Below the pieces are notes generated by a model that had not been told where the DNA came from, did not search any database, and saw only the letters and a list, made by a program, of their open reading frames with translations. Position numbers and translations under genes: made by a program. Source: Mya arenaria (taxonomy: Eukaryota; Mollusca; Bivalvia; Myida; Myidae). Taken from it: 64,000 nt of DNA. The stretch spans positions 25,306,489 to 25,370,488 of the forward strand of contig NC_069124.1 of assembly GCF_026914265.1 (NCBI RefSeq), given 5' to 3'. This document shows positions 644-36,268 of the stretch, in pieces (within the stretch, counting starts at the first letter, position 1; the number at the start of each line of letters is the position of its first letter).

Positions 644-3600
644 ATGAATGTGTCCAGAAATTCATGTAATTTGAGATTCTGCTCAAAAGTTTTCACAAGT
701 TTTACAATAGCTGGAAAGAAAAAAGGTGTAACATATAATAGATTCAGTAATCACTATTACTCTTCAAAGACACCAAAAGTTAGTGAGTGGATAGAGCCAT
801 CAGGAAATAGGACAGGCATATACATATATAACTCACTGACAAAACAGAAGAATGAATTGGTTCTGCCCAGAGGAAACCATTTATCTTGGTGAGTTTAAGG
901 CCTATCCAATAGAGAAAGAGATTGTGTCTCAACTGAGAATTGACCCAAATACCTCTAGTTCTGCAAGTTAACACACCAACCACGATTAGAGCAACTCTGT
1001 TTATTTAACGTTCACTAGTGTTCATAACTCTCACACAGGACGCCCGTTAAATGTCCCTCCCAATAGACGGTTAGTTTTTTAGTGGTGAGGATGGGGATTG
1101 AGTCTGCAAAGCTCCAAAGACAGTCAAGTGGTCCACAAGACAACAGTTCCACCATGTGTCTAAAGAGCTAGCCTAAATGCAGGTTTCAGCTCTTGGAAGT
1201 GCTAATGTATATATGGCTGACTGGCTTCACTTCTTTCCCAAATATTTTTTTTGAGTTTGAACCCCTGGTTGTGTTATCTGCCCAAGTACATACAGGTGTT
1301 CTTCTCGCACCATTTTAATATAGAAAGAGTTGTGTCTAGACGGGATAGAAGCCAGTACTGCAATGTCCACAAGATGACGTAACATCATTACCTAAGAGCT
1401 TAAGGGCATGCCCAAGAGACAATCTAGCAGCGGTGTCATGATAATTGTCATACATCATACAAAATTAATGATTAGAACTTACCATATGCATGTTAATGTA
1501 TGTTGCCTGCTAACTATTTTAGCTTGTCCGAACTCTGGTCTACTCTGTAAATGTGGACTAAAACCTTTCATAAACATGTACTGAAAAGAGTGACTGCTTG
1601 TTGTTAAATTGCTTAGAGTCTTGGCCTTGTTTCAAGAAGAAATCCTAGTTGTAACCCTAACACTGCATAAGAGTGCTAAAGTACACCTGTAAAATGTCAA
1701 GCAAACGTCTTTAACCATATTTTTTATTGACCACAGTTTACGCCCAAAGCTAGATTACGCATGAAAATTTACCATCTTATTAAAATAGTGAAAAGTTGAT
1801 TTTAGTCACCTTTTGTCAAGATTTTGTTTATATCTATTCAAATTCAAACTTTATATTTAAAGCTGCACTTTTGTGGATTGACATTTTTGACCCTTTTTTG
1901 TTTTTGTCCCAGAATCAGCTGATTTTGGTATCAATGCCTTCAATTCAGTCATATAAAATAACTCATTAGAAAAGATTTAATTTGTGTGGAAAACTGCTGA
2001 AATTTTTATTTTTCTTGAAGCGTAACACTTTTTAAAAAAGACTTAAAATATCAATTTTCGAACGTAAATATGAAAAACTGACATTTTATCAACAGTCTAT
2101 CAACAGTCTTGCATCACTGGTTTCTAGACAATTAAGCAAAAAAAATGGCTCATTCCAAGACAAAAAATAACTGTGAGAAACCAGCTTTAAGAACTGAATG
2201 CTATGTTTTGCATGTACCAGCAAATGTAATTGTAAGTTTTTTAAAGTGTGAACATTTTTGTCATTGAGCATGATAATCGATGCCAAACCATATTAATGCT
2301 TTATGTTAATTTAATCATATCTTATAATATTATTAGTATTTAAACACAGTGAGTCACTTAGCCAAATTGGGCCAAACTGAAATGGCATTAGTTTTACTTT
2401 TACCGCCTCTGACAAGTGACAAGGCAGAGTAAAGCTACCATTGTTGTAACCTTGACAGTCCATTTTTTGCCTATTAAAAACATTTCATATCTAGCTGTTT
2501 TATTTCAGGTATATATGTGGCCTGACTGTGTATGACCCCTCACACATTTCATATCTTACTGTTTTATTTCAGGTATATATGTGGCCTGACTGCCTATGAC
2601 TCCTCACACATTTCATATCTAACTGTTTTATTTCAGGTATATATGTGGCCCGACTGTCTATGACTCCTCACACATTTCATATCTAACTGTTTTATTTCAG
2701 GTATATATGTGGCCCCACTGTCTATGACTCCTCACACATTTCATATCTAACTGTTTTATTTCAGGTATATATGTGGCCCCACTGTCTATGACTCCTCACA
2801 CATTTCATATCTAACTGTTTTATTTCAGGTATATATGTGGCCCGACTGTCTATGACTCCTCACACATTTCATATCTAACTGTTTTATTTCAGGTATATAT
2901 GTGGCCTGACTGTGTATGACCCCTCACACATTTCATATCTAACTGTTTTATTTCAGGTATATATGTGGCCCGACTGTCTATGACTCCTCACACATTTCAT
3001 ATCTAACTGCTTTATTTCAGGTATATATGTGGCCCGACTGTCTATGACTCCTCACACATTTCATATCTAACTGTTTTATTTCAGGTATATATGTGGCCTG
3101 ACTGCCTATGACTCCTCACACATTTCATATCTAACTGTTTTATTTCAGGTATATATGTGGCCCCACTGTCTATGACTCCTCACACATTTCATATCTGACT
3201 GTTTTATTTCAGGTATATATGTGGCCCGGCTGTCTATGACTCCTCACACATTTCATATCTAACTGCTTTATTTCAGGTATATATGTGGCCCGACTGCCTA
3301 TGACTCCTCACACATTTCATATCTAACTGCTTTATTTCAGGTATATATGTGGCCCGGCTGTCTATGACCCCTCACACATTTCATATCTAACTGTTTTATT
3401 TCAGGTATATATGTGGCCCGGCTGTCTATGACTCCTCACACATTTCATATCTAACTGCTTTATTTCAGGTATATATGTGGCCTGACTGCCTATGACTCCT
3501 CACACATTTCATATCGAACTGTTTTATTTCAGGTATATATGTGGCCCGACTGTCTATGACTCCTCACACATTTCATATCTAACTGTTTTATTTCAGGTAT

Positions 3601-6600
3601 ATATGTGGCCCGGCTGTCTATGACTCCTCACACATTTCATATCTAACTGTTTTATTTCAGGTATATATGTGGCCCGGCTGTCTATGACTCCTCACACATT
3701 TCATATCTAACTGTTTTATTTCAGGTATATATGTGGCCCGACTGTCTATGACTCCTCACACATTTCATATCTAACTGTTTTATTTCAGGTATATATGTGG
3801 CCTGACTGTCTATGACTCCTCACACATTTCATATCTAACTGTTTTATTTCAGGTATATATGTGGCCCGACTGTCTATGACTCCTCACACATTTCATATCT
3901 AACTGTTTTATTTCAGGTATATATGTGGCCCGACTGTCTATGACTCCTCACACATTTCATATCGAACTGTTTTATTTCAGGTATATATGTGGCCTGACTG
4001 TCTATGACTCCTCACACATTTCATATCTAACTGTTTTATTTCAGGTATATATGTGGCCCGACTGTCTATGACTCCTCACACATTTCATATCTAACTGTTT
4101 TATTTCAGGTATATATGTGGCCCGGCTGTCTATGACTCCTCACACATTTCATATCTGACTGTTTTATTTCAGGTATATATGTGGCCCGACTGTCTATGAC
4201 TCCTCACACATTTCATATCTGACTGTTTTATTTGAGGTATATATGTGGCCCGACTGTCTATGACTCCTCACACATTTCATATCTAACTGTTTTATTTCAG
4301 GTATATATGTGGCCCGACTGTCTATGACTCCTCACACATTTCATATCTGACTGTTTTGTTTCAGGTATATATGTGGCCCGACTGTCTATGACTCCTCACA
4401 CATTTCATATCTAACTGTTTTATTTCAGGTATATATGTGGCCCGACTGTGTATGACCCCTCACACATTTCATATCGAACTGTTTTATTTCAGGTATATAT
4501 GTGGCCCGGCTGTCTATGACTCCTCACACATTTCATATCTAACTGTTTTATTTGAGGTATATATGTGGCCCCACTGTCTATGACTCCTCACACATTTCAT
4601 ATCTAACTGTTTTATTTCAGGTATATATGTGGCCCCACTGTCTATGACTCCTCACACATTTCATATCTAACTGTTTTATTTTAGGTATATATGTGGCCTG
4701 ACTGTCTATGACTCCTCACACATTTCATATCTAACTGTTTTATTTTAGGTATATATGTGGCCTGACTGTCTATGACTCCTCACACATTTCATATCTAACT
4801 GTTTTATTTCAGGTATATATGTGGCCCGGCTGTCTATGACTCCTCACACATTTCATATCTAACTGTTTTATTTGAGGTATATATGTGGCCCCACTGTCTA
4901 TGACTCCTCACACATTTCATATCTAACTGTTTTATTTCAGGTATATATGTGGCCCCACTGTCTATGACTCCTCACACATTTCATATCGAACTGTTTTATT
5001 TCAGGTATATATGTGGCCCGGCTGTCTATGACTCCTCACACATTTCATATCTAACTGTTTTATTTCAGGTATATATGTGGCCCGACTGTCTATGACTCCT
5101 CACACATTTCATATCGAACTGTTTTATTTCAGGTATATATGTGGCCCGACTGTCTATGACTCCTCACACATTTCATATCTAACTGTTTTATTTCAGGTAT
5201 ATGTGTGGCCCGACTGTCTATGACTCCTCACACATTTCATATCTAACTGTTTTATTTCAGGTATATATGTGGCCCGACTGTCTATGACTCCTCACACATT
5301 TCATATCTAACTGTTTTATTTCAGGTATATATGTGGCCCGACTGTCTATGACTCCTCACACATTTCATATCTAACTGTTTTATTTCAGGTATATATGTGG
5401 CCCGACTGTCTATGACTCCTCACACATTTCATATCTAGCTGTTTTATTTGAGGTATATATGTGGCCCGACTGTCTATGACTCCTCACACATTTCATATCT
5501 AACTGTTTTATTTGAGGTATATATGTGGCCCGGCTGTCTATGACTCCTCACACATTTCATATCGAACTGTTTTATTTCAGGTATATATGTGGCCCGACTG
5601 TCTATGACTCCTCACACATTTCATATCTAACTGTTTTATTTGAGGTATATATGTGGCCCGACTGTCTATGACTCCTCACACATTTCATATCGAACTGTTT
5701 TATTTCAGGTATATATGTGGCCCGGCTGTCTATGACTCCTCACACATTTCATATCTAACTGTTTTATTTCAGGTATATATGTGGCCCGACTGTCTATGAC
5801 TCCTCACACATTTCATATCTGACTGTTTTATTTCAGGTATATATGTGGCCTGACTGCCTATGACTCCTCACACATTTCATATCGAACTGTTTTATTTCAG
5901 GTATATATGTGGCCCGACTGTCTATGACTCCTCACACATTTCATATCTAACTGTTTTATTTCAGGTATATATGTGGCCCGACTGTCTATGACTCCTCACA
6001 CATTTCATATCGAACTGTTTTATTTCAGGTATATATGTGGCCCGACTGTCTATGACTCCTCACACATTTCATATCGAACTGTTTTATTTCAGGTATATAT
6101 GTGGCCTGACTGTGTATGACCCCTCACACATTTCATATCGAACTGTTTTATTTCAGGTATATATGTGGCCCGACTGTCGTATGACTCCTCACACATTTCA
6201 TATCTAACTGTTTTATTTCAGGTATATATGTGGCCCCACTGTCTATGACTCCTCACACATTTCATATCTAACTGTTTTATTTCAGGTATATATGTGGCCC
6301 GACTGTCTATGACTCCTCACACATTTCATATCGAACTGTTTTATTTCAGGTATATATGTGGCCCGACTGTCTATGACTCCTCACACATTTCATATCTAAC
6401 TGTTTTATTTCAGGTATATATGTGGCCTGACTGTGTATGACCCCTCACACATTTCATATCGAACTGTTTTATTTCAGGTATATATGTGGCCCGACTGCCT
6501 ATGACTCCTCACACATTTCATATCTAACTGTTTTATTTGAGGTATATATGTGGCCCAACTGCCTATGACTCCTCACACATTTCATATCTCACTGTTTTAT

Positions 6601-9600
6601 TTCAGGTATATATGTGGCCCGACTGTCTATGACTCCTCACACATTTCATATCGAACTGTTTTATTTCAGGTATATATGTGGCCCGACTGTGTATGACTCC
6701 TCACACATTGGTCATGCAAGCAACTATGTCAGATATGACATCATTCGAAGAGTCTTCCTTGATTTCTTTAACATCAATGTCTCATATCTGATGGGCGTTA
6801 CAGACATTGATGATAAAATCATTGTTAGAGCAAATGAGGTAAGTTATTTTTAGTTAGTTTTTGAGAGAAAAATAAGTTGAGGTATAGAATTAAGGTTATA
6901 TACTACTAATTCATTTCCCAATTAATTTCTATGTTAACAGGCAACACTTCAGATTGAAGAAAGCCATTTCTAGCGTTTCCATACATTTCTTTAAAATTCA
7001 AATCACAACCAATTGATTTAAACAAAAAAAAGATATGTCACATTTCACCTAAGAATATTCACTCATTTTAAAGTTAGTTACTGCTAATTTTTCACGGGTT
7101 CTAATGTTGTATCAGGCCGGAAGTAAGCAAATTTCTAGTCCAGCAGAAAATGTTAAATCTCTGAGATATTCATGATTTTTTTATTGAACTGAATGCAAAG
7201 AATAACAACTATAAATTATGTGCATTACCCAAAATATCAGTCTGAAGTAGCATTCTCAATCTTAAAGTGTTCGTATATTTAAAATCAATACTTACACACA
7301 AACATAAACTTTAAGTGATAAACCTTTAACTACTATCTAAATAATGCATTTATGGAAAATATTAATTGCTGATAACAAGAGTGTAACCTTGTTTTTAATA
7401 GTTGAAAACGCACAAATATTAAATAACTGATGGGTCTTAAAAGATTAACTGTGATCAACTATTGTCTCATAAGGTAGAAATGCCGCGATTTCTGCACCTT
7501 TTTTCAAATTAAACATGTATTCTTAATAAGAACCATTGTTTTCAATATCTATTCATCCTTTCCAGTAAATTAAAACAATTGTATTAATTGTGGTACTGTT
7601 TATTTGGGAGTAAGAAAGCATCTTTAAATATAGAGACTGCATCCTGGACAACATACGAGTGCCTGGCATTTAGTTATAACGTACCTTATGATAGCATTGG
7701 TGTCATGCAAAAATTATTACCTTGGTCATAAATCAAACAAGGTTTTAGATAATGAAATACAATGCTACACATGTTAATTCAAACCGCATTTATTCCAAAT
7801 TAACATACACAAATATTTACATATAACAAAAAGTAAGGATCGGAAAACGAGTTATTAAAAACTTACGTAAATTCCTTTCTTATTTAGTCAAATAAGCTTA
7901 TTGTGAACATTTGCAGTCAAAATGCCTGTAATTAGAGACTTGTTAAACATACATGTACTGATATATACTGTTATTTTGTTTAATAAATGTAGCTATATAC
8001 TTGGGTTAAAATTTCATGCATGACACACAACCCCGACATACAACGCTTTAGCAGTCCCCACAAACAAAAAATCTCTAAAACCTCCGACTATTTTAATTGT
8101 TGAATTTAATATGCATGTAGGTTGACAAAAAAATGCAAAACTTTAATGTGGCCTTAAAGCTGCACTCTTACGAATTGACAGTTTTGATCAGTATTTTTTT
8201 GTCTCAGAATCAGCTCATTTTGGCATCATTGCCTTCAATTCAGTCGTATAATATAACTCACAATAGAACAGATTACAATTGTTTGGTAAACTGCTGATTT
8301 TGTTTTCTTAAAGCGTTAGTAACGATTTTTAAGTCATCAAACATAGATTTTTAAACATAGATATGAAAACTGCGATCTGCTCTTTTGTCAGCAGTCTTAT
8401 ATCACTGGTTTCAAAAAAATGTTGAAACGCTCAATCTGTGAGAGTGCAGCTGAGTCTATGACATGGACTTTAATGATGCCCCAACTAATGAAAGTGATTG
8501 TTTTGAATTTTAGCCTCTTTGAGATGTTATTCAAATATGTTTAGTTATGTCAACAAATAGATATCTCCTTGTTCAAAAATTGTCAAATAACATGTTTTTG
8601 GGGCATTATGTCAATTCTGATTATGGTAGGCAAATGAAAGAATTAAAGGGACTAGACACCAGATGATACAATTAGAGAAATTTGCCTTAAACATAATTTT
8701 GATATTGTTGTGTACATCACATATTGGTAAATGTATCTGTACTAATCACCTGACTTTAATGTACTAAATGTATGAACTATATACAGTAATACTGCGGTCG
8801 TTCAAACAGGCTGTTGTTAGAGAACAGGCGGTCCCTCGAGGTCGGAGCTTGGTCCCGAACATTTTTCCTTCTATTTTCACATAAAATATACTGACGCTGC
8901 ATCGAAACCTAAATAAGTCGAAGAGTCGACCACAATAGCCGGTCCCAAGTACACAAATCATGCACAAAACCTTATAACTCCCTTGAGGTAAATCCTGTTC
9001 AAAATAAACAAACAACTGTATGGTGTTATGATTTTTTGGTAAGTTGTAAAAATTGCAATAACAGTTGAAAGGCGATCTAATAAGTTGTGAAAAAACGTTT
9101 ATCATTGTTTCCGCATGACGGATAGTAGTTGATAAGGGCATTTCTAAGCATCTGATCCCTTGAGGTTTTGGCTCGGACCCCAGTGTCCTCAAGCGATCGC
9201 AGTTTTACAGTACTGGGAAATCATTATGCGCTATTTTTAAACCGGTAATCTCAGCTGAGACAGCAACAAAATATTCTTTTTAATCAGGAAAGCTGATGTA
9301 TTATCGGCCTCATACTAGCCCATATTGACAATTCTGGGCTTGTTTTGTGGAATTAATGTGTTTGCCAATTTTGGGACCATCTGGTGTCTAGCCCCTTTAA
9401 TCAGTCTCATTTTAACATATGTAAGTACGATATAATTGAATGTACTTTGAAAGTTTTTTTAAGAACTCATTGTTTATCACACAAGTTTCCTCAGTCAGAT
9501 GACTCGTAGGGTTGATGTTAATGTAATATCATGTGTTCCAGCTGGGGCAAGACTTTACAGCCATAACAAACCACTATGAGAGGGAGTTTTTCCAAGAAAT

Positions 9601-12600
9601 GTTGGCATTGAACATCCTGCAGCCAACAATGACATCTAGGGTGTCAGACTATGTGCCGGAAATCATAGCTTTTGTGCAAAAAATAATGGAAAAAGGCCAT
9701 GGATATGTCGGAAAAGATGGTAAGCATTTTGAGGGGTAAATGTATAAATAGGTTTGATGTGATTCTTGACTTAATTTCACTTAGATTTTTAAATGATTTA
9801 ACAAGTTGATTTGGAAATTTGGACAAAAATCTGCAGGTGCCAATTTTTCTATCAATATTAAGTCCCTAATAACAGGATTAAGCAGATTGCACTATTTTTA
9901 TTTTGGTATGCATTGTGTAATGTTCTATTTTTTATTATAACCTACTTTTCCAGCCAATGAGATTGCCCATGGGCCTCTTAATTAAAAGTCATCAGCTTCA
10001 TCCTAAAGCCTTGCAGTTTTACAACAAACAATCATAACCTCAACATTTGGTTCCCTGCCTGAAGTCAACATATCGTAATGACCTCATCATTTGGTTCCCT
10101 GCTTAAAGTAAACATATCATCATGACCTCATCATTTGGTTCCCTTCCTGAAGTAAACACATCATCATGACCTCATCATTTGGTTCCCTTCATGAAGTAAA
10201 CACATCATCATAACCTCATCATTTGGTTCCCTTCATGAAGTAAACACATCATCATGACATCATCATTTGGTTCCCTTCATGAAGTAAACACATCATCATG
10301 ACCTCATCATTTGGTTCCCTTCCTGAAGTAAACACATCATTATAACCTTAATATTTGGTTCCCGGCCTGAAGTATACACATCATCATGACCTCATCATTT
10401 GGTTTCCTGCCGCCTGAAGTATGATCTCATTATTTGGTTCCCTGCCTGATGTAAACACATCATGACCTCATCATTTGGTTCCCTGCCTAAAGTAAACGCA
10501 TCATCATGACCTCATCATTTGGTTCCCTTCCTAAAGTAAACGCATCATCATGACATCATCATTTGGTTCCCTGTCTGAGGTAAACACACCATCTGATCAT
10601 GACCTCATCATTTGGTTCTCTGCCTGAAGTAAACACATCATAATCTAAGTCAGTTGGAACGTGTTGTTTAAAATCTTAATTACAAGGACAGGGCCCACTA
10701 AAAATATTCTGTTAAAAATTAATTTATATTTATCTCGTACATATACAATATATGCAATGTTTTAAGATGAAATAGTTGTATAGCATGAACAAAACGCACA
10801 AAAAAAACAAACAACAGGGCCCACTGGTCACTTCTATCTTTGCCCTACTTAATTATTATGATTTAACACAATGTGTTTTTCTTCTTATTATTATTATTAT
10901 CATAGACTTATCAGACCCTTTTGAAAAATTATTATAATATTTAATATAGAATTAATCAAAACTATTGTTTTTGTTTAGTAAAATCAGGTATATAATTTGG
11001 TGTAATATAATAAAATAGGCTCAAGATATTTCGAGAATTTGGGCCAGGTAAAAAAAAGAGTATTTTAAAATGTTTACATTGTCTACTGGATTTTACTTAA
11101 ATGTAATTCGGGTAGGTATTCTACATTAAAAGCCTTTTATTTCGATTGCCCTGCAATGCTGGTAGTATATTGTAGATTTATTGAATTAAGAGCTTTTCAA
11201 AAACGTATATGATAATTATTTGAATAAGTTGATAAGTCTTTAATGTTTTTTTGCATTATGTAAATAAATCTTCATATTTTTGTGTACAAATCATGCAAAA
11301 AAAAGATTGATGATCTGAGTTGGAGATCAAATACAATTTCAGGGTCATAGCGTCAGAATTCATTTCACATGGTCAAAAAAATTTCATGTATTTCAGGCAG
11401 TGTTTATTTTGATGTTGTGGAGTATGGAAACTACTACAAGTTTGCTTCCCCTCAGCAACTGTTCAAGTCCGATGTTGAAGGTATTACTGTTTATAGTGTA
11501 GCATTCGTTACTGTAGATTGGTTTAAAAGTGTAACATTTGTTACTTTAGATTGGTTTAAAAATTGGTTTAAAAATGTATTGTTTGCTATTGTAGATTGGT
11601 TTAAAAGTGTAACATTTGTTACTTTAGATTGGTTTAAAAGTGTAACAATCATTACTGTAGATTGGTTTAAACGTGTAGCATTCGTTGATGTATATTGCTT
11701 TTAATTCTAATTTGACGTGACCTTAATAATCATGATCTTTTTGCAAAAGAGTCAGGTTGCAACTTTAAAACCTAGCAAAGTATTAATTTACACATGTTTG
11801 CAAAACGATACATAACAGCTTTGCAAATATCAAACCTCTCAAAATTGGATTAATATCAAAATAATTATTCAGAAAGGTCCTAACCATAGTAGGAAATTAA
11901 AACAGTTTACAGTGCTAATGATTTTTTCAGTTGTTGGGACAGTCATTATACGTTATGTATGTTATATGTACGTTTTTGAAGGACTGTGAAACAAGCTGCA
12001 AAACTTTTCAACCCTGTGCAAATCCTACTTATTTGAATGATGTTTAAAACATAGCTTTAGCTTTTGAGCAGCGTACTGGTGGAAAGGGCACAGTTTTGGA
12101 TGTCGAAGACCTGATGGACTATTTACGAAGCATCTGAATGATATACGGATATAGCATACGATATAACATATAGATAATACATTGTATTTATCACTATTTT
12201 CAGTGAAGAAGAACCCTGCCGACTTTGCTCTATGGAAGGCGGCAAAGCCTGGAGAGCCATTCTGGGATTCACCCTGGGGACCTGGACGTCCGGGCTGGCA
12301 CATTGAGTGCTCAGCTATGGCCAGGTACCTGTAAATTGGTTTTGCAAATTAGGCTTGATAAATTGTTGGACTTGTCGTAGTTGTAGTCAGTGTGCAATAA
12401 CTTGAACCTTCGCAACTACTTGAAAACTGTAAGATATTAAAATGAAGTTTGGTATTGAAACAAATCTATTCGCTCATGTGAAGCAAGGTGTATAACTCTG
12501 GTTTGATTAATTCTTGACTTATGCTCCATGATTGATTGAAAAAAAAAGAACAGATGAGTGTTGATGTTTCCTCCGTGGCGCTGTTGTTTTCTTAAGCTTT

Positions 12601-15600
12601 CATTCAAACCTTCTCCTGTCTGCATTGTTGCAATGCCCAGATGTCTCTTTCATTTAATAGAAATAATTCAGCCTCAGCATGATCTGGTCAGAATTTGGAA
12701 AAACAGTGCTAAAGCTAAAATGAAACACAGACACATTTCTAATAATTCATGCTTAACAAACAGCACTGATGATACCTCATTTTTTTAAATATGACAGGGT
12801 TGTCTTTCTACGTTAGAGGAAGGGGCCCGGGCTCTGAGAAAGGGAAACGTAGAGTTGTTTTTGCTTAAAAGAGGAATTTTGCAAGTTGACAGACACAAAG
12901 CAAAAAAACAACATTTTATTTTGGTGGATAATTATAACCAAAATTTAGGGGAAATAGTATATTCCTTGGCTTGTAAAATGGGACTTGTACATATTTGGCT
13001 TCAAAGTTCAATGAAAGACAGCTCTTTAGTATTATACATGTTATTTCTTATATTTCAGATTTATATATGCCAGTTACATGAATATTTGTAAATATTTAGA
13101 ATTGATGAAAAGCTGTTCACACTTACATCAAATAAACTTTATGTTCTATTATGTTATGATGAAACGCCAAATCATTTTTCTTATCCTGCTAAAATTACTA
13201 ACCTTTCGTTAAAAATATTAGCCGAGTGTTTGGGAGCACCATTGACCTTCACTCAGGCGGGTTAGACCTGATGTTCCCCCATCATGAGAACGAGATTGCC
13301 CAGTCCTGTTCGTACCATGGCGTCAAACAATGGGCAAACTACTGGCTGCACACAGGTTTGTTAATAAGTAGACATAATTCTCAATAGAACTTGTATGGTT
13401 TGTGGGTTTTTTCCTAAAAAATTTAATTTGCCATCAGATTTTTATCTTGTCTGTCTTTGGAATATAAAAGTCGGTGCATTGTGATGACCTTGGTATCGTC
13501 AGCCTCATTGTGCAAAGAATTCGATTCAGGCCATAGATAAAAAAAAATGGAACTGGTTATAATTGGTGCTAGAGATAATACTCACATGGCTGACAAGGCA
13601 AATATGTTTAGCTTTAATCATTACTGGGCCCATTGTTCAGAACTTTGTTAAGGTTAACAACATTGTTTACTTCATCGTTGTTAACTTTCAAATCAATAAT
13701 GCTCCTGAAAGTTAATGGATACACTAGTCATCTACTGTATCTCAAACAAAAATTTGAGACATCTGTTTCAGGTTTACTTACTTATACTTAAGTATGCGAG
13801 TACATCATAATATATTTTACAGTTTAATGTTAACAATGATGTCGTTAATCACCTTGTTAACTTAAACAAAGTTCTGATCAATTGGCCCACTGAGTGATAA
13901 CTCTTGTTCAACTGAACAAACAAGAACAGACAGGTGTTAGTGTTAGGTCTATGATGCGCATCAATGGGCTACTGGATGTTTAAGTAAAAAAAAAAAAAAT
14001 CACAAAAATGTACCATATAGCCTGTTCTTTCCCGTATATTTAGCACACAATATATGATTTTACTGTGTATATAATGTAAGCTTAACGCTTGAGATAATGT
14101 TTGTTTAATGTGTAATTGTTTTAAATTCAAATTTGGTATTACTTTGAACTTATGCTTTGAAATTCTAACTAGCTCCCAGATATATGATAGCTGTCATTTT
14201 GTAACGTTTTGGTGTGCTTGAAATGCAGAAATTGTCCTAAGAAATATAATATTGTGTTAAACTTAATAACGAAAAATGGAATGTTCTTACTATGATTCAT
14301 ATTGAAAATTTTCAATTTAATAAACAGTTTTGCTTACAAAACCCTGTAAAAAAATAATATTTTCACAATAATTATTTTACTTATTTCTTTTCAGGGTTCC
14401 TGTTCACACCGCAGGAATCTGAGAAGATGTCTAAATCGCTGAAAAACACGATTTCCACATCATCTCTCCTTAGCAAATACACGTCAAACCAGTTTCGCAT
14501 GTTTTGTATGCTCACACACTACAGGAATAGTAAGTCATTGTTATATAGCTAGTAATTTTTCATTTTAAAAGAAAAGGGGCATTGACCACTTACATTCTCA
14601 CTAGTAATTACTCATCACAACACACAAAATTAAAATTAGTAATACATTCCCTGTAATCTGTCAATTAATTCGCAGACATTACTACAGTTATCTACAATTA
14701 GACATTGCACAATAAATCTATTGTCAGACATTCTCGCTTTAATCTATGGTCAGACAATTTTTCTTTAATCTATGGTCAGGCATTCTCCCAGTCATGTATG
14801 GTAAGACATTCTCCCAGTAATCTATGGTAAGACATTCTCCCTGTAATCTATAGTCAGACATTCTCCAGGTAATCTATGGTCAGACATTCTCCCTGTTATC
14901 TATGGTCAGACATTTTCCCTATTATCTATGGTCAGACATTCTCCCTGTTATCTATGGTCAGACATTTTCGCTCTTATCTATGGTCAGACATTCTCCCTGT
15001 TATCTATGGTCAGACATTTTCCCTGTAATCTATGGTCAGACATTCTCCCTGTTATCTATGGTCAGACATTCTCCCTGTTATCTATGGTCAGACATTCTCC
15101 CTGTTATCTATGGTCAGACATTCTCCCTGGTATCTATGGTCAGACATTCTCCCTGGTATCTATGGTCAGACATTCTCCCTGTTATCTATGGTCAGACATT
15201 TTCCCTATTATCTATGGTCAGACATTCTCCCTGTTATCTATGGTCAGACATTTTCCCTATTATCAGACATTCTTCTGGTAATCTATGGTAAGACATTCTC
15301 CCTGTTATCTATGGTCAGACATTTTCCCTATTATCTATGGTCAGACATTCTCCCTGTTATCTATGGTCAGACATTCTCCCTGTTATATATGGTCAGACAT
15401 TTTCGCTCTTATCTATGGTCAGACATTCTCCCTGTTATCTATGGTCAGACATTTTCCCTGCAATCTATGGTCAGACATTTTCCCTGTTATCTGTGGTCAA
15501 ACTTTCTCCCTGTAATCTATAGTCAGACATTCTTCTTGTAATCTATGGTAAGACATTCTCCCTTTATTCTATGGTCAGACATTTTCCCTGCAATCTATGG

Positions 15601-18600
15601 TAAAACATTTTCTCTCTAAACTATAGTCAGACATTTTCTCTCTAATGGTCAAACATTTTTTCTGTTATCTATATTCACACATTCTCTCTTTAATCAATGG
15701 TCAGACATATAGTCTGACTTTCTATCTTATCTATAGTCAGACATTTTCTCTTTAATCCATGGTCAGACATTTTATATATGTTTAATCTATTATCAGACAT
15801 TGAGTTTACTGAGGAGAAGATGCAGAAGGCGATCTCCCTTGACAACAAGATTGGCTCGTTCCTGCGGCAGTGTGATGCCTATGTGAAAGGACAAGTGGTT
15901 GGAGGAGACATATCCGAGGCCGAGACCATGAATATGTAAGACCCAAGAAATATGCTTAGTGAGAATGTGGCCACTTTTAAGGCAAACATCATGCCAATTT
16001 ATTGCATGTTTAACTGATTATCACATTCATTATTATATTTATTAGCATCTTGTTATGTGGCCAAAACAATTATGAATACATAAATTAACCCACCTATGGC
16101 ACAGGTTAATTGTTATACTTTCCTGAAAAGGTATTTGTTCCCAAACTCTTTTAATCTCTAGAGCAGGCAAAAGACTGTAACATGTTTATTATGATTATCA
16201 AGTCATTACTCAGTCAAAAACAATTCATACCAACTGAATAAAGTCTAGGTCTGACTACACTGCTAACAGACATTTTTAGCTTGACCAAGCGAAATTCATG
16301 CACTGTGATAGTCCAATGTTGGCGTAAAGAATTTTAACGATGGCTTTAACTTATAAAATGCTAAAGATTTTCCAATGAAACCTGGTACACATGTTACCTG
16401 TGATAGTATATACATGCTTAGGAAGGCACATAACTCTGGCTTTAATTAACACCCATTTTCAACTGCAAAAAAGAGACAAGCATTTGCACGGCCCTGCAGC
16501 ACTCTTGTTATTTAGTAATCAAGATGGCCTGATAATGTATTACGTCTTCTTCAGGCTGGCAGAGAACTACGAAAGGGTGATGGGTCATCTGAAGGACGAC
16601 TTTCACACACCACTTGCCATGGATGCCATCTTCAACCTTATATCAGTTCTCAATCAAAAGTTCAAAGAGGTACATACCAGTAAACATCAATGGAAATAAA
16701 GATGTGGTTCCATTTCAATGGTTAAAGTCGATCTTAGTTGTATATTAAAATTACAGTGGTATTATATTTTGGTTTTGCTACTACATATTTGTGTGAATTG
16801 AACAGTCTGAGAAAATTGAAAGAATAAAGGTTTTGGGAAGATTATTGAACTTATGATTAAGATCCTAAAAAAAGCCAAAGGTCTTGTCTATTTTCAGCCA
16901 ATGAAATCTCCATTATTAGCCATAGTGAAATACTTCTTTAAAAGAAGTTGAGGTATTGTCATAGACTTGGTGTTTTGGAAAGCGTTAGTATGCATGACTT
17001 TAACTTTGGCCATAACCAAAATAACGGTCGAGATATTCATATGAAACTTAGGCCACATGCTACCAGTGTTTATTCACTTATGTGTTGAAAGAACCATTAC
17101 TACAATTAAGTACTAGTAGTTGTTGAGTTGTCCCTTTAGCAACTGAGAGGAGAATATATGAGAGTTGACATTCACCTGTGGGGATTGTATTTATGGTGTT
17201 ATGATAAAATATAATCAAATAATTGTTCAATGGACACCTTTGTTTGTTTTTTTAAATGTCTGATTTCATGTTGCATAAAACATGTTTTATTATTCCCTGT
17301 CAGAAAAGATAATCACGTATCTGACTTCCATGTAAAATATTATTTCAAACAGATAAGATCTTTCACAAACTAGTTCCATGTTTTGTTTTATCTCCAGTCG
17401 GATACAGTGTGTCGATGTCCCGGTGTTATAGCGGCTGTAGAGGTCCATGTAAAGAGGATCTGCAAGAAACTTGGCTTCCTTAAGAAGGGCTGGAAGGTGA
17501 GTGAAATAGTTAATTAGACATCAGAAATAAACTATGAGGTGTTTCTTATAGGTGTAATATTCATCAAACCTGATTTTTTTGTCACCTGGAAAGCATGGTA
17601 GACTTATGGGCATTACTTTGTCCAGTGTCTGCGTTGTTACAGGAGTGTAGTATTTTATATGGGTTGCAGATAAATATGAATCACTAAAATATGCCTTATA
17701 ATTTTCAATACTTGAATTCCTAATTTTGTGGCAGATTAGGCAATGTTTTTAAAAGAATGCATTTTGCTTAGGTACATGATGTTAAAGATAGGAAAGAGAA
17801 TGAGTGTATGACTCGGGTTTATTGATCAAAATGAATCACTGAATATGTCTTTAAGTTTTCATATTTGCTCTCATATTTTTGGTTTTAGATGAGTGAAGAC
17901 TCAGACAACATGAAACTGAGGGAAGTCCTTGATCACACTGTCAGATTCCGCTATAACGTTCGACAGTACTCAATCAAAACTAAACTCCCAGAATCCGTTA
18001 CAGGTAATATCTTATTAGGCTGACCTTAAACTATTAATTGTTGCAATGGCCTGACTCATACTTTTTCTAGTTGTGATGGATGGTTTCCCAATTTATATTT
18101 TAAGCATGTCCATTTTTTGGAAGAAAAAGGTTGTGATATTGTCAAATTTGGGACTTCAAGACTTGGTACACATGTTTTCAGAAACACTCGAACCATGTCC
18201 ATAACTCAAAAACCCTTCAAGATATTCAAATGAAACTTGGTACGCATGTTTCCAGAGACAATACACAAATGTTTAGAAAGGCTCATAACTCTTACTTTAA
18301 TAGTTGTTGAGTTGTGCCCGTTTTACTGAAAGGTAATCAGATAAGCGTAGGTACCAGTATTTGCTACATGGTTCTCTTGTTTACCTATGGTAAGACTGAG
18401 TTATAACTTACCACTTGACAATAATTATGAGAGTGTAATAAAGAAAAAATGCTAAATACAGTAGTCAAACTATCCTTCCATATCCATTTGTATAAAACTG
18501 GTTAATCCTTTGGTTTTGTCAAAGTTGGCCAAAATGTTTATTGATTGGTCAATATTTATCCAATTATAACTACTAACCAATCAAATCATTTAAATGTGCA

Positions 18601-20395
18601 ACTAACTGAAAGACTGTGGACAACTTATCCAGGTTTTATACCGGCTATATATGTCTGTCTGGATTAATTAAAGAACACAAGTTTAAACCCTACTTTAAAA
18701 TATTTAGGAATCTTCTAATGTTCATTTGCAAACGCAGATTTTTCTCTACACTTGTGGCATTATTTCAGCGTCCTTACCTGCCGGCATGGAAAAGAAGATA
18801 CGCAAGGAGCTGTTTACCCCTCTGCTACAACAATGTGACAGCCTGCGAACACAGCTGAAGAACTGCTACATAAATATACAGGTCAGAAAAGCAGGCTGAA
18901 AACAATATTATAATTTACTGGGTTAGTCGGTGACCTGATATGGGATATACAAATATGTTGTCCTGCTCCCTGTATATAACATAGGGGCAACCTGTTGATA
19001 TTGGTGAATTATAGGAAATGGTAAATCGGAATCGCAAAATAGCCGCTATTTTGGTACTTTAAAATTTAGTGACTAAGTATGAAAAAATGGAGTCTTCGCA
19101 TGACCAGTCCTGGACCAATGGCATTGCGTCATTCATGTTGGAGGCGTTATATGATTTACTATAATTTATTTTGGGCTTGGAATGATAGAACTTGTTAATT
19201 TTTCACAAGTAGGGGTAAGAGTGGTCAAGTGGGTTAGATGCCCATCTCTCACCAAAGAGGTTGTAGGTTCGAGCCTCACCAGGGGTAATTTCTCATGGCC
19301 TTTCAAAAATGACACAGTACTGTGGGTTTTTTCAGAAAACTGACTCTAGAGAGATTAATATCAGCTTTCAGCTGACTACAATCAAGCAAAATAAATTCCT
19401 ATAAACCAAGTAGGCTGTTCTTGACCAAAAGATTACTCTTATTGTTTTTTGGATTAGAAAATCAATATTGAAGGTCACAGTAATTTTCAGTGCATTTTTC
19501 CTTAGAACAAATTCAGGGCTTTTTCTATAGTACCCACGGGTCCGACTATCAGACCCATTCCCAAAGCAAAATTTATGATAATTTTCCCAATCTTCAGAAA
19601 TTCATGATTTATTGCAATAGATATTTACACCCCAAGGATTGATATTTCAGCCGTTTAAGGTCTTTTGAAAGGGAAAAGAAACTAATATATAATAATTTCC
19701 TCTTTCGCAGGAGACTGTAAAAGCTTGTTCTTTTAACTGTAAAATTTCCCAATTTAGGTATATTTGCGATGAAAATTTTCCCAAAATGTCTAGGGTCTTT
19801 TTCCCAAAATGGATAGAAAAAGCCCTGATATTGCAGTCTACTGTCTAGCAAATGTTTAGGACAAAGCGATGCTTAGGAGCATTAAGTTTTACAAACATCT
19901 CTTGTTTGCCATGCTCAATTACATTACCTTTTGTAGAGTTTAAGGAAATAATGAACATTTCAGGACCTTAAAACAAGCTCGACATGGGACTTTGATGATT
20001 CTAAAGATATGAGGGAAGATTCAGACTGGGATAGCGACAGCAGCGGAACTCCCATGGACAAACAAACTACACAAGAAACACAGAGCAGTGAACATGGGAC
20101 ATCAAAGGAACCTATTAGCAAAGAAATTATGCATGATACACAGTGCGGAAAGACTGAGGAGTTCGAGAGAGAAATGAGCACAGAAAGCCCAAGTATACAC
20201 GATACACAGAATCGAGATTATAAGATATCAGAGGAACCAACAGGCAGACATACACATGATGGACAGACGACGGAAAGTGAAAAATTGGAACAATCGCTTA
20301 ATGTTGAGGATACATGTAGGAAAGATACAGAAAAGGTTGATTCGAAAGTGTTAAAAGAAGCAACTGAGAGTGTTTCCAAAAGAACAACAAGCTAG
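644..20395 (+). CDS. CARS2: Cysteinyl-tRNA synthetase, mitochondrial (CARS2), 13 coding exons
   Basis: The product charges mitochondrial tRNA-Cys with cysteine in the matrix. Exons: 644-888, 6670-6838, 9542-9719, 11397-11480, 12204-12324, 13222-13355, 14395-14529, 15797-15935, 16555-16669, 17398-17496, 17889-18003, 18769-18881, 19964-20395. They join in frame into about 692 residues. Class I signatures are intact: [16 protein letters not shown] (HIGH at 94-97), GWHIEC around 256-261, FPHHENE around 284-290, and KMSKS at 321-325. By analogy with bacterial CysRS the zinc ligands are C85, C261, H286 and E290. The first ~80 residues are basic and hydroxylated, fitting a mitochondrial presequence. 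STWDFDDSK near 555-563 matches the end of vertebrate CARS2 (STWELLDQR), which argues against cytosolic CARS1. Beyond it lies an extra acidic S/T/E/K-rich tail of about 125 residues with repeated HDTQ-like motifs, apparently lineage-specific. The weakest border is the exon 4 donor (GTATTA). Introns 1 and 7 end in minisatellites that contain the acceptors. No canonical AATAAA lies within 250 bases of the stop. Confidence 0.94.
889..2480. other. CARS2 intron 1, unique part
   Basis: This is the first part of intron 1, starting at a consensus GTGAGT donor. Apart from the short inverted-repeat element at 1857-2190 I see no gene or array. The donor joins phase 2 (CTTG) to exon 2, completing the tryptophan codon of WYICGP. 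Confidence 0.6.
1857..2190 (+). mobile_element. MITE family A, degenerate copy
   Basis: A non-autonomous DNA element about 330 bp long. It starts TTAAAGCTGCACTTTTGTGG and ends with a decayed inverted copy (CTGTGAGAAACCAGCTTTAA). Its interior (CAGAATCAGCTGATTTTGG, then CTTCAATTCAGTCATA) matches the copy at 8154-8452. TTAA at both ends suggests a TTAA target duplication, as in piggyBac-like elements, but no transposase is present, so the superfamily is inference. Confidence 0.65.
2481..6709 (+). repeat. 64-bp minisatellite carrying the CARS2 exon 2 splice acceptor, about 66 units
   Basis: A tandem array with a 64-bp period. The first acceptor-like AG ends at 2508 and the true exon 2 begins at 6670, 65 periods plus one inserted base later. 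Each unit holds the end of intron 1 (CTGTTTTATTTCAG) and the first 40 bases of exon 2, which encode [13 protein letters not shown]. The last unit runs on into unique exon sequence (CACATTGGTCATGC), whereas the others return to intron sequence (CACATTTCATATC). Most units keep the peptide with GTC in place of GTG for valine. I saw the acceptor AG in every unit scanned; roughly seven units have GAG instead of CAG and two have TAG. Confidence 0.97.
7262..7628 (-). mobile_element. MITE family B copy
   Basis: An element of about 367 bp in reverse orientation relative to the copies at 59311-59688 and 63158-63532. Shared landmarks include the terminal TTTAAAGATGCNNNCTTACT, an internal TAAATAATGCATTTATGG, and GATAAACCTTT. 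The ends are imperfect inverted repeats (TTAAAGTG / TTTAAAGATG). It is non-coding and lies in CARS2 intron 2. Confidence 0.75.
8154..8452 (+). mobile_element. MITE family A copy
   Basis: An element of about 300 bp. It starts TTAAAGCTGCACTCTTACG and ends TCAATCTGTGAGAGTGCAGCT, inverted copies of each other. The interior is shared with 1857-2190 (CAGAATCAGCTCATTTTGGC, CTTCAATTCAGTCGTATAA) and partly with 59044-59315. The right-hand TTAA is lost (GCAGCTGAG). Confidence 0.75.
8643..9400. mobile_element. MITE family C, host of a nested element
   Basis: The outer inverted repeats are TTAAAGGGACTAGACACCAG at the left and CTGGTGTCTAGCCCCTTTAA at the right, about 23 bp each and close to perfect. TTAA at both ends suggests a TTAA target duplication. 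The total is 758 bp, of which about 430 bp is a second element inserted at 8783-9212. No transposase is visible. Confidence 0.75.
8783..9212. mobile_element. Short TIR element nested in MITE C
   Basis: The left end reads ACAGTAATACTGCGGTCGTT. The right end, read on the other strand, is TACTGTAAAACTGCGATCGC. They form imperfect inverted repeats next to TA dinucleotides, which suggests a Tc1/mariner-type non-autonomous element. Two diverged direct repeats lie just inside the ends (GTCCCTCGAGGTCGGAGC near 8831 and ATCCCTTGAGGTTTTGGC near 9156). A minus-strand open frame of 142 codons spans it, but I recognise no protein there. Confidence 0.6.
10029..10642 (+). repeat. ~45-bp minisatellite in CARS2 intron 3
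   Basis: About 13 degenerate units with the core CCTCATCATTTGGTTCCC followed by a CTGAAGTAAACACATCATC-like arm; the period varies from 44 to 46 bp. It is intronic, in the 9720-11396 intron, and does not touch a splice site. Confidence 0.85.
11494..11700 (+). repeat. 33-bp minisatellite just inside CARS2 intron 4
   Basis: Six or so units of 33 bp built on TAGATTGGTTTAAAAGTGTA begin about 14 bases after the exon 4 donor (GT at 11481). Because 33 is a multiple of three and the frame stays open, an unspliced message would continue past DVEG into repeats of [11 protein letters not shown] before stopping at 11702-11704. I treat this as intronic, because splicing to 12204 restores the conserved [10 protein letters not shown]. 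Confidence 0.85.
13626..13888. mobile_element. MITE family E copy
   Basis: Inverted ends: GGGCCCATTGTTCAGAACTT at the left and GTTCTGATCAATTGGCCC at the right, extended inward by GTTAACAA-type arms on both sides. It is about 263 bp, lies in CARS2 intron 6, and is related to 34378-34602. No coding sequence was seen. Confidence 0.75.
14700..15796 (+). repeat. 26-bp minisatellite ending in the CARS2 exon 8 acceptor, about 40 units
   Basis: The unit is ATCTATGGTCAGACATT followed by CTCCCTGTT. The array becomes ragged at both edges. The true exon 8 begins at 15797 as ATTATCAG|ACATTGAG, so the exon junction is the last, diverged member: each unit repeats CAG|ACATT preceded by a pyrimidine tract (TTCTCCCTGTT). 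Upstream copies return to array sequence after ACATT, whereas the real exon continues with GAGTTTACTG. Several open frames over this array (SLLSMVRH-type repeats) are artefacts. Confidence 0.93.
16380..17165 (+). repeat. Dispersed repeat fragments in CARS2 introns 8 and 9
   Basis: Fragments at about 16370-16480 and 16990-17160 share phrases with 18110-18340, 49300-49450 and 56520-56650, such as GATATTCATATGAAACTT, CATAACTCTGGCTTTAAT and GTTGTTGAGTTGTNCC. This looks like an old interspersed family with poorly defined ends. Exon 9 (16555-16669) lies between the two fragments. Confidence 0.4.
18110..18345 (+). repeat. Dispersed repeat fragment in CARS2 intron 11
   Basis: The same family as above: ATTCAAATGAAACTTGGTAC, CATAACTCTTACTTTAATAG and GTTGTTGAGTTGTGCCC. 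Its core phrase (gene-family style GAAACTTGGTACNCATG) occurs twice here. No ends, target duplications or coding sequence could be identified. Confidence 0.4.
19213..19340 (+). mobile_element. tRNA-derived SINE
   Basis: An A-box-like TGGTCAAGTGG and a perfect B-box GGTTCGAGCC lie about 40 bases apart, as in a tRNA-Leu/Ser-like promoter for RNA polymerase III. It continues into a tail (TTTCTCATGGCCTTTCAAAA) shared with the copy at 62726-62835. There is no acceptor-stem pairing, so it is not a functional tRNA gene. It lies in CARS2 intron 12. Confidence 0.7.
19514..19827. mobile_element. hAT-like MITE
   Basis: The inverted ends CAGGGCTTTTTCTAT and ATAGAAAAAGCCCTG are perfect over 15 bp and enclose about 314 bp of AT-rich non-coding DNA with repeated TTTTCCCAA. 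CAGGG...CCCTG termini are typical of hAT elements, but I could not see a matching 8-bp target duplication. It lies in CARS2 intron 12. Confidence 0.65.
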
Positions 20396-32800: not shown

Positions 32801-35800
32801 AAAAAGGACCGGGTACAGCTGCCATTTTTATTCACTAAAAAGGACCGGGTACAGCTGCAAAGGGCAGGGCCCCTTTTCAATGAGACATATTTGTTGTAAA
32901 CCTTATGCTGCTAAAGAGTGCTTGGGTACACTGTAAAGTTATGGCCATAATCTATGCAATAAATGTCCTTACAATACTTTTATTGAACGCAGTTTATGCC
33001 AAAAAAGAGGTTAAAACAGTTATAAATTTACAATTTTAAGCTTTAGGATTTTTATTGAAACCTGGACCAGGGTGCTGTCAGAGGGAGAAAGGGTACAATT
33101 AATTAATGGGTTTTGAAAAAGTTAAATGTTCTGAATTCGACAGAATCATTGACTTGTTGGGAATCATGTTTAATTAAATTTATATCAGGTATGAACTTCT
33201 TAATATGTAAAGATTGCATGTTATAAAATCATATTCCAAGTTTTTATTAAAACAAATGAACTATTTGACAGACAGTCTTAAGCATTTAATTCTACAAAGA
33301 TGGAAGAGTGCACATGCTGGTCTCCATGAGGATTCCAAAAATGGACAGGGTGCTCCTCTTTTCCATATTAACTCTTTAGCTAAGATCCTATCCTTTTGGT
33401 CTATTCATGTATATTACTCATGGTTTTGTACGCGATTTAACCTTCTTCTTTAACTTAGATTTATTGTGATGCCATTGATTTCAAGTTACCCATGGCAACT
33501 ATAAATAAATTTTTAGATTTTTCATCCCCGCCCTATCTACTTTGTACTGTATATTTTAGTATAATATACAGAACAAAGTGCATATTTATAAAGAAAATAG
33601 TTTTCAATATTTTTTCACATTTTTGGTATTATAATTTTTAGTTCAGAATTATAAGAATTTTTTTTGATTTTTTAAAAAAATGATTGAGTTTGAAAATCTG
33701 GTGCCAGCGGTCAGATGTTCATTCTTAAAATCTTATTTATTTTATATCATTATTATAATATTTCAGGGGAAACAATGGCGCCTATCGAGAAGAAGAAACA
33801 AAAGAATCCACAAAAGAAAGGTAATTACTTTAATATGTAATTTTTATTACTTTAATATGTAATTTTTATTAAATTGTGTGTTGTAATCTTTGTTGATTTT
33901 GACAATGTTTCAATGTTGCAGTATCTTATTTGTTGAGATATGCGTTTGCTGATAACTATATAAGTATGAAAGTCATTGATAACATAAACAAATAATTATG
34001 AGCACAGATGAACCTTGTGAAAGTAGCTTTAGTAGTATTGAGCTGTTAATATCAACTGAGGGATTTGTAAATACTATCTGATCATTTCTTTAGCTTTAAG
34101 AACATATAAAATATCAATGACTCTACTTTTGCTTTCATTTTAAGAGATATGTCACATGCTTTCATCATGGGAGTATTTTGGCCCAAAAAAATGACAATGA
34201 GGAATTTTTTACCCATTTTCTCAACTATTTTTTTGCCTGCGTCCTATCTATGCTAGCGTCCTATACATGATATAATACGGTACAGTTTTATTCGTTCTGA
34301 CAACAAAAGCTCATGTTTTTTTTTCAAATTCCAAATTTTCTGACTTTATGCCAAAATACCTATGATGTGTGACACAAGGGTCGATTGTTCAGAACTGTGT
34401 TTAAGTTAACAATTTTGTTAACGTCTTCGTTGTATCCTTTTTAATCTGTTTTGCTCAGGAAGTTTGAAGAAAAAACTGTTGTTACTGTACTTGTTTAATT
34501 TAAATATTTGGCCACATCTCAAAATACTTCATCTTTAAAAAGTTAACAACGATGTTGTTAATCAGACTGTTAACTTTAACAAAGTTCTGAACAATTGGCC
34601 CCAAAATATATAAATATATTAATAAAATACATGTAGAAATAAATTTCATGTAGGAGTCTACTAAAGTATTATGTACACATGCTTTCAGCTACCTGTACAA
34701 GTGTAAAGGATAAATATATATATTTTTCAGAACAAAAAAGTGGAAATTGCTGCTTCAAGTTACTGTGTGGATTTGTCTTCAGCCTGGCATTGATTGCATC
34801 AGCACTTTTTGGCACTCTAATGTACTGTCAATACAACTCAGGGAGCAATTTTTGTGAAATCATACAGTATGAGAGTACTGTAGTTCCATTTAGTCGTGCT
34901 TATGTGATTCCGTATGTAGAAAAGGCCCAGGGCTTTGCCCTGAATGCTCAAGAGGAGATAACTGTTGCTGGCCAAAGATGTTCAATTTGGATTCAGGAAA
35001 ATGGCCCAAAGTTCACTAGCTTTGTAAAGGAAAAATGGAATGATGTTTCAGGCTATGTTGTGGAAAAATGGAATGAGTTTTCCGCCCTTGTTGAATGGCA
35101 GTACAAGTCTTTCTTAGGAAAGGGTGAGGAGGAACCTGCCCGAAGACAGACTGGAGGAGAAAGTAAGACCAAAGGAAAACCTACTACAACTCCTAAGCCA
35201 ACAACAACTACACCTAAATCAACAACAACCACCACAACTACACCTAAACCAACAACCACCACCACAACTACACCTAAACCAACAACAACCACCACAACTA
35301 CACCTAGACCAACAACCACCACCACCACAACTACACCTAAACCAACAACAACCACCACAACTACACCTAAACCAACAACAACCACTACAACTACACCTAA
35401 ACCAACAACAACCACCACAACTACACCTAGACCAACAACCACCACCACCACAACTACACCTAAACCAACAACAACCACCACAACTACACCTAAACCAACA
35501 ACAACCACCACAACTACACCTAAACCAACAACAACCACCACAACTACACCTAAACCAACAACAACCACCACAACTACACCTAAACCAACAACAACCACCA
35601 CAACTACACCTAAACCAACAACAACCACTACAACTACACCTAAACCCACTACCACAACTACACCTAAACCAACAACAACCACCACAACTACACCTAAACC
35701 AACTACCACAACTACACCTAAACCAACAACAACCACCACAACTACACCTAAACCAACAACAACTACACCTAAACCAACAACCACCACAACTACACCTAAA

Positions 35801-36268
35801 CCAACAACCACAACTACACCTAAACCAACAACCACCACAACTACACCTAAACCAACAACCACCACAACTACACCTAAACCAACAACAACCACCACAACTA
35901 CACCTAAACCAACAACCACCACCACAACTACACCTAAACCAACAACAACCACCACAACTACACCTAAACCAACAACAACCACCACAACTACACCTAAACC
36001 AACAACAACCACCACAACCACACCTAAACCAACAACTACAACTACACCTAAACCAACAACAACCACCACAACTACACCTAAACCAACAACAACCACCACA
36101 ACCACACCTAAACCAACAACTACAACTACACCTAAACCAACAAAAGCCCCAGAAAAGGATCAAAATAAAGTAGATGAAACTAATCAGGAAATAAAGGCTG
36201 GTTTAAGTGAGCAGGAAGGTGGTGAAAAAGTTGTAAAAGTTGGAAAGCGAAGAAAACCGAATAACTAG
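29874..36268 (+). CDS. LRRC59: LRRC59 (p34) ER membrane protein with mucin-like tail, 7 coding exons
   Basis: LRRC59 is a ribosome-associated ER and nuclear-envelope membrane protein implicated in translation and in nuclear import of FGF1. Exons: 29874-29963, 31086-31145, 31368-31631, 31995-32067, 32644-32781, 33767-33820, 34731-36268. They join in frame into about 738 residues; human LRRC59 has 307. The start [19 protein letters not shown] matches the family. Leucine-rich repeats span about 16-125 ([47 protein letters not shown]), followed by the diagnostic [19 protein letters not shown]-rich, probably coiled-coil stretch covers about 142-226. One membrane helix lies at about 233-259 ([20 protein letters not shown]...). 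The following ~115 residues should be luminal. Residues about 377-697 are [10 protein letters not shown]-type repeats, absent from vertebrate LRRC59, and the protein ends in a charged stretch. An AATAAA lies at 36395. Confidence 0.95.
29964..31085. other. LRRC59 intron 1
   Basis: A 1.1 kb phase 0 intron with an ordinary donor (GTAAAA) and acceptor (TTGCAG). I see no array, inverted-repeat element or exon-like sequence in it. Confidence 0.5.
32787..32858 (+). repeat. 36-bp tandem duplication next to the LRRC59 exon 5 donor
   Basis: Two identical units reading CATTTTTATTCACTAAAAAG then GACCGGGTACAGCTGC start five bases after the exon 5 donor (GT at 32782). The frame stays open through both, so a retained intron would add [12 protein letters not shown]-type repeats before stopping near 32934. 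Confidence 0.85.
34378..34602. mobile_element. MITE family E copy in LRRC59 intron 6
   Basis: Inverted ends of about 35 bp: GGGTCGATTGTTCAGAACTG and, at the right, GTTCTGAACAATTGGCCCC, each followed inward by TTAACAA-type arms (AACAATTTTGTTAACG / GTTAACAACGATGTTGTTAA). It is related to 13626-13888. It ends about 130 bases before exon 7. Confidence 0.75.
35181..36141 (+). repeat. Coding Thr-Pro-Lys repeat inside LRRC59 exon 7
   Basis: About 38 tandem units of CCTAAACCAACAACAACCAC type encode [11 protein letters not shown], with the number of threonines varying from four to eight. Unit lengths of about 21-30 bp are all multiples of three, so the frame is kept over 960 bp. Some units have CCTAGA (Pro-Arg). 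Open frames on the opposite strand (poly-Val/Gly, WFRCSCGGC) and in the +2 frame ([10 protein letters not shown]) are by-products. Confidence 0.95.

Follow-up and report, generated by a model that had tools for sequence, protein, structure and literature searches.

How does a cell find the correct splice acceptor when 66 nearly identical ones stand in a row before a single exon? The question is raised by CARS2, the gene for the mitochondrial cysteine--tRNA ligase, in the clam Mya arenaria. The gene lies in a stretch of 64,000 nucleotides from contig NC_069124.1 (positions 25,306,489 to 25,370,488 of the forward strand; assembly GCF_026914265.1), which is referred to below as the window. Its intron 1 runs into a tandem array whose units each repeat the acceptor and the beginning of exon 2. 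The favored explanation, to which a probability of about two in three can be given, is that a minisatellite was founded by chance across the acceptor, that it would be tolerated through exon definition, and that it probably has no dedicated function.

The tandem acceptor array is real. Tandem Repeats Finder (TRF) reports a period of 64, 66.1 copies, 96% matches, and a score of 7828, and a unit-by-unit cut gives 66 acceptors, spaced 64 bp apart in 64 cases and 65 bp apart in the remaining one. The two procedures agree with the first-pass annotation, which had described about 66 tandem 64-bp copies of the end of intron 1 and the first 40 bases of exon 2. Each unit consists of the end of intron 1 (5781 nt in all), the AG, and the first 40 nt of exon 2. 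The AG is kept in 66/66 units (CAG in 57, GAG in 7, and TAG in 2) and the exon side starts with GTATAT in all of them, which gives the junction the form TTTCAG/GTATAT (a slash marks splice junctions throughout). Minisatellites are built of head-to-tail units of about 10-100 bp that are highly alike. By unit length, copy number, and likeness, the array before exon 2 is a minisatellite and a candidate variable number tandem repeat (VNTR); a unit size of 15-100 bp is given in PMC3618361. A pattern search of the 1.216-Gb assembly with at most two mismatches finds 66 sites, every one inside this array, and the reversed control pattern finds none under the same conditions. The copy number is read from one assembly. 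It is very improbable that the genuine genome holds one or few copies and that the others are an assembly artefact: the units fall into 32 distinct sequence types, one of them is 65 bp long, the variants follow each other in irregular order, and an array of this type also occurs in another gene, at two paralogous loci.

Behind the array stands a complete gene. The 13-exon model (Table 1) has a coding sequence of 2079 nt, and its translation is identical to all 692 residues of P0001 ("probable cysteine--tRNA ligase, mitochondrial [Mya arenaria]"), the top protein match among 120 listed, with 8000 candidates scored. This exact identity bears out the earlier assignment of the gene to CARS2. The start of exon 2 in the model is the final one of the 66 acceptors, as in the database protein. 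Acceptor use is here read from database protein models and from the sequence. Another Mya arenaria database model, P0008, likewise runs on from the last copy and begins with MIAYSFVR; no source for this start was detected when window positions 1-22000 and 8 kb upstream were read in the three forward frames (L018 compared). The PF01406 profile has nine matches in the whole genome. Because five of them fall in CARS2 and four at a single locus on C4, which is taken to be the cytosolic gene, only one CARS2 locus is recognized, and no second one was found by this genome-wide search.

The choice of acceptor has severe consequences for the product. When exon 1 is joined to each of the 65 upstream acceptors, a premature stop follows in 65/65 cases, at codon 112 for 61 of them, at codon 103 for two, and at codons 120 and 91 for one each; the last acceptor alone leaves the frame open. 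The idea of a decoy field with a single productive acceptor is supported by this result. Exon 2 would be 169 nt long if spliced at the last acceptor, 233 nt at the penultimate, and 4330 nt at the first, and the longest open stretch in the array, in any of the six frames, is 71 codons. The predicted read-through peptide compared with about 5.8 billion proteins gave two matches, each with 55% identity over 47% of the query and neither from this clam. This is a weak negative result, because decay is expected for such mRNAs and protein catalogues seldom include short products.

As far as the sequence shows, local splice-site strength does not explain the choice. The motif yUnAy is the usual yardstick for branch sites. 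The branch-like motifs of the 65 decoys are CTAAC (43), CGAAC (13), CTGAC (5), CTAGC (2), CTTAC (1), and CTCAC (1), and the true site has CGAAC. By the same yardstick CGAAC is the weaker branch form, and the idea that the true site is stronger than the decoys was rejected on this ground. Indeed, an intact yUnAy motif together with CAG or TAG is kept by 44 of the 65 decoys; since the true site lacks this motif, local strength cannot account for the choice.

The decoys themselves look neutral, judging from their variation. In the unit, 13 of 64 positions vary, with equal density in the exonic part (7/35) and the intronic part (6/29), and non-synonymous change occurs at 5/7 of the exonic variable sites versus 78/102 of the single changes that are possible. 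These figures give no sign of purifying selection on the coding sequence of the decoys, and the suggestion that coding is preserved in them is not supported. As for their supposedly synonymous sequence, 37 of the 65 decoys do encode the 12 residues of the last copy (38/66 units when that copy is included), and the other 28 carry one change (19) or two (9). In 26 of these 28 the alteration falls within CGPTVYD, a heptapeptide identical in 9/9 homologous proteins compared, two of them from Mya arenaria. Selection to keep the AG in 66/66 units is likewise unnecessary, because 51 of the 64 positions never vary.

What would single out the last acceptor is its position. Exon definition, a mechanism known in general, offers the likeliest and simplest selector, because 44/65 decoys equal or surpass the true site by motif and the last copy is followed by a gtaagt donor. 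The true exon would be recognized as a unit, in which the last acceptor, the nearest to that donor (169 nt), pairs with it, and the 65 upstream acceptors would be bypassed within the intron. Occasional use of an upstream acceptor would lead to an early stop in translation and probably to nonsense-mediated decay. The gene could thus tolerate the array because exon 2 is recognized as a unit. Three points weigh against this explanation. Exon definition in this clam is assumed and not derived from clam data. P0001 may itself be a prediction, which makes it weak proof of which acceptor is used. Finally, a chance founding alone does not predict that repeats spanning donors are absent from all 109 loci surveyed below, although the cases are few (three on acceptors, CARS2 included).

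The origin of the array can be sketched from its edges. The 5-bp direct repeat ACATT stands at both of them and suggests slippage, end-joining, or a microhomology-mediated duplication. In the favored reading, chance would have founded the minisatellite over the 3′ splice site of intron 1, with a first tandem duplication between an ACATT at the intron end and the ACATT at exon positions 36-40. This duplication would have carried the branch region, the pyrimidine tract, the AG, and 40 nt of exon, and slippage or unequal exchange may then have brought the array to 66 units. The mean difference to the last unit is 3.09 in units 1-11, 3.18 in units 12-22, and 2.09 in units 56-66 (the last unit itself counted), and the likeness between units is raised at lags 3, 5, and 14 (shuffle fractions 0.0085, 0.0015, and 0.001, uncorrected for the 15 lags). 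Because of this gradient and these lags, a block duplication of units is likely.

Repeats of a similar kind, on which the first-pass annotation is silent, occur at a few other splice sites. In CARS2 itself, a second array with a 26-bp period (38.6 copies, 85% matches) continues as degenerate copies up to exon 8. A loose 26-bp pattern finds 42 unit sites before this exon, the true one included, with an AG at the junction in 38 (CAG in 34 and AAG in 4). Use of the upstream AG sites gives a premature stop in 36/37 cases; one site, 30 nt upstream, is in frame. An exon survey covered 64 loci (60 from PF00118 and PF00133 and four from the C4 PF01406 locus) and 40 shorter ones (20 from PF00118 and 20 from PF00063) with flanks of 220 bp. 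All come from conserved families, and some of the loci overlap or form paralogous pairs. Self-comparison detects coding repeats on the acceptor side at 3 of these 104 loci, two of them paralogous, and at one of five CARS2 loci (exon 2). The corresponding rate, roughly 1-3% of acceptors, is a rough estimate. Donor-spanning repeats were not found at any of 69 and 40 loci. Short repeats near L026, L027, L035, and L069 were not counted as acceptor repeats, given the absence of a coding self-match.

The three repeat-bearing loci differ in copy number. In L044, a chaperonin family exon (PF00118), the acceptor and the initial exon bases form an exact duplicate, two 41-bp units with the junction CACACAG/GTTGGCGATGGTACA; use of its first copy would soon run into a TGA. 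L073 and L075 are two loci on C17, about 89-90% identical over aligned stretches, with the KMSKS exon of a PF00133 protein, presumably valyl-tRNA synthetase, as guessed from the peptide. Their unit is 58 bp long with AAG or TAG ahead of GTTCTCTTACACGGCAC; L073 has 11 units in 658 bp, and L075 has about 30 units by length in an array of 1764 bp, of which 26 were counted within L075. The AG is kept in 9/11 and 24/26 units, respectively. The different lengths of these paralogous arrays show change over time, which is distinct from allelic variation of CARS2. Loci L070 and L069 were grouped with this pair. Other repeats were seen in the survey. L009 and L016 have downstream self-matches of coding sequence; that of L009, from the C4 PF01406 locus, lies 174 bp downstream (67 bp, 85%) and is perhaps a duplicated exon. 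At L045 a repeat begins just past the donor, and the remaining copies have no GT.

These observations bear on two other explanations of the array in CARS2. It could act as a regulatory throttle, an idea that goes back to the first-pass annotation, in which frequent decoy use sends the pre-mRNA to decay and the level of CARS2 follows the length of the array. The early stop from 65/65 decoys and the 44/65 that keep a branch motif with CAG or TAG speak for it, but no sign of selection is seen on the decoys, and none of the roughly 5.8 billion proteins searched with the read-through product gave a match from this clam. Moreover, an unrelated gene has similar arrays and a third gene has one of two copies, which points to a by-product. 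The throttle is judged unlikely. Alternatively, removal could be stepwise, or recursive, since each 64-nt unit could serve as an intron of its own (GTATAT..CTAAC..TTTCAG). Every unit reads AG/GTATAT, so that a donor is restored wherever an upstream copy is spliced to, and a further splice to the last copy could repair the mis-spliced intermediates. The retention of AG/GTATAT in 66/66 units is in keeping with this idea, and by a hand-weighted score CAG/GTATAT reaches 5.4 as a donor, inside the range of the 12 annotated donors of the gene (4.6-7.9). Conversely, the junction that would actually form with exon 1, TTG/GTATAT, scores 3.6 on the same hand-weighted scale, below all 12. An efficient use of GTATAT would also skip exon 2, because the true exon begins with the same letters. 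Stepwise removal is accordingly judged quite unlikely.

A further point concerns the first letters of the exons. The exon starts with GT in all three distinct repeats whose exonic part is sizeable (CARS2 exon 2, L044, and L073/L075), as compared with 8/71 other scored acceptors. The latter figure comes from the 104 loci, of which 97 are distinct and 73 exceed an acceptor score of our own making; 10 of the 73 start with GT, and L044 and L073 were set aside as repeats. The L075 exon also starts with GT and fell under the score cut. Against this, the count is small, and exon 8 of CARS2, before which the 26-bp array lies, starts with AC; exon 2 is the only GT-starting exon among the 12 acceptors of the gene. 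The association is a lead and not a test, because it was formed on these same data. A broader proposal is that splice-acceptor satellites form a genome-wide class in the clam, at about 1-3% of acceptors, persisting mainly at GT-starting exons because AG/GT would make each unit a self-removing mini-intron. It appears doubtful, with little probability given to it. If true, introns would be born in these arrays as in tandem nurseries, with a second splice repairing mis-splicing, and their birth would be caught in the act.

Splice-site minisatellites and intron gain by tandem duplication are already known, and the large acceptor array is a variant of these. In the Rogers model of intron gain, the tandem duplication of a segment with AGGT offers both a GT and an AG, and what lies between the copies is removed as a new intron; AG/GT is found in 66/66 units of the array. 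In potato, a two-copy duplication of an intron end and exon start yielded a new intron (PMC4974935). The copied segment is similar, as it reaches from the 3′ part of an intron into the start of the following exon and takes along branch site, pyrimidine tract, AG, and coding bases. The potato case has two copies, a new intron seen in RNA-seq, and a GTAAG donor recruited from the upstream exon, whereas the clam has 66 copies known from sequence alone; L044 (41 bp, two copies) is nearer to it in copy number. In human paralogues, introns were made by tandem repeats via cryptic sites (PMC2812944). The minisatellite of human IFI6 (6-16) supplies multiple splice donors (Turri, Cuin and Porter 1995, cited in PMC2572611 and PMC4526556). 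It resembles the clam array in that the units contain a splice site and provide many candidate sites in one gene, but those are donors reported as used alternatives, whereas the CARS2 units carry an acceptor, with GTATAT as a possible donor. The recursive-splicing ratchet points of Drosophila consist of an acceptor directly joined to a GT (PMC8605326), the AG/GT arrangement that TTTCAG/GTATAT also has. They differ in having mostly strong regenerated donors and long introns, whereas in the clam TTG/GTATAT is weak by the hand-weighted score and each unit repeats, in tandem, the beginning of a coding exon. An ABCA7 VNTR affects splicing (PMC5954066) and is likewise a tandem repeat bearing on the splicing of its host gene; it is intronic by the title of the report, whereas the clam unit itself includes the acceptor and coding bases. 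An acceptor array this large, or such arrays recurring in one genome, was not recognized in titles and abstract starts of the openly licensed literature.

The array should also be seen against its background. TRF rows of at least four copies cover 12,038/64,000 bases of the window (18.8%), 5,834/19,752 bases of CARS2, and 15,347/204,507 bases of the 64 sampled exon loci (7.5%). Given this abundance, an array on one acceptor is unremarkable. Of the 12 donors and 12 acceptors of CARS2, one acceptor lies in such a row; that of exon 8 lies 89 bp past one, among degenerate copies, and no excess of arrays on the splice sites of the gene can be claimed from 1/24 sites and exon 8 just beyond. The window holds other arrays as well. 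A frame of 541 codons at 34643-36268 has a long threonine-proline-lysine tail from a 30-bp array (35204-36138), and a 57-bp array of 22.6 copies at 42508-43795 can be read in long open frames on either strand (337 aa on the plus strand, 210 and 169 aa on the minus strand). A 36-bp array, 98% alike, spans 63593-63998 and L019:1-87, and its plus-strand units hold a donor-like AAGGTAAGG. This AAGGTAAGG is probably not a used donor, as an adjacent coding-looking stretch lies on the minus strand. RNA families and tRNAs were not found in the window at default thresholds. Several of the families searched show paired loci with near-equal scores (C10/C13, C11/C16, C17), which are either recent paralogues or unmerged haplotypes.

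Table 1. Position in the window of CARS2, its exons, and the tandem arrays at two of its acceptors.
Feature	Position	Strand	Remarks
CARS2, mitochondrial cysteine--tRNA ligase gene	644..20395	+	13 coding exons; translation equal to P0001; PF01406 matches
Exon 1	644..888	+	donor TTG/gtgagt
Array of 64 bp x 66	2480..6709	+	intron 1 end, AG, and first 40 nt of exon 2; TRF and unit cut
ACATT, intronic edge of array	2480..2484	+	
ACATT, exonic edge of array	6705..6709	+	followed by unique GGTCATGC
Exon 2	6670..6838	+	169 nt; last acceptor TTTCAG/GTATAT to donor GAG/gtaagt
Exons 3-7	9542-9719, 11397-11480, 12204-12324, 13222-13355, 14395-14529	+	
Second array, 26-bp unit	14716..15796	+	unit ending ..CTATGGTCAG/ACATT; reaches exon 8 acceptor; TRF row 14716-15708
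Exon 8	15797..15935	+	acceptor ATCTATTATCAG/ACATT, like the 26-bp unit
Exons 9-13	16555-16669, 17398-17496, 17889-18003, 18769-18881, 19964-20395	+	

The locus amounts to a natural experiment, with 66 near-identical acceptors before one exon, only the last of them productive, and a single CARS2 locus found. Thirteen decoys match the true site across the last 29 intronic bases; because of this, the choice among them cannot rest on these bases, so that the locus sets apart cues of position, for example exon definition and how far the donor lies. There is also a caution for genome annotation, as exons may be misplaced in the gene models of genomes rich in arrays. With similar repeats at a few other splice sites, the clam genome offers a natural test of how cells pick their splice sites.

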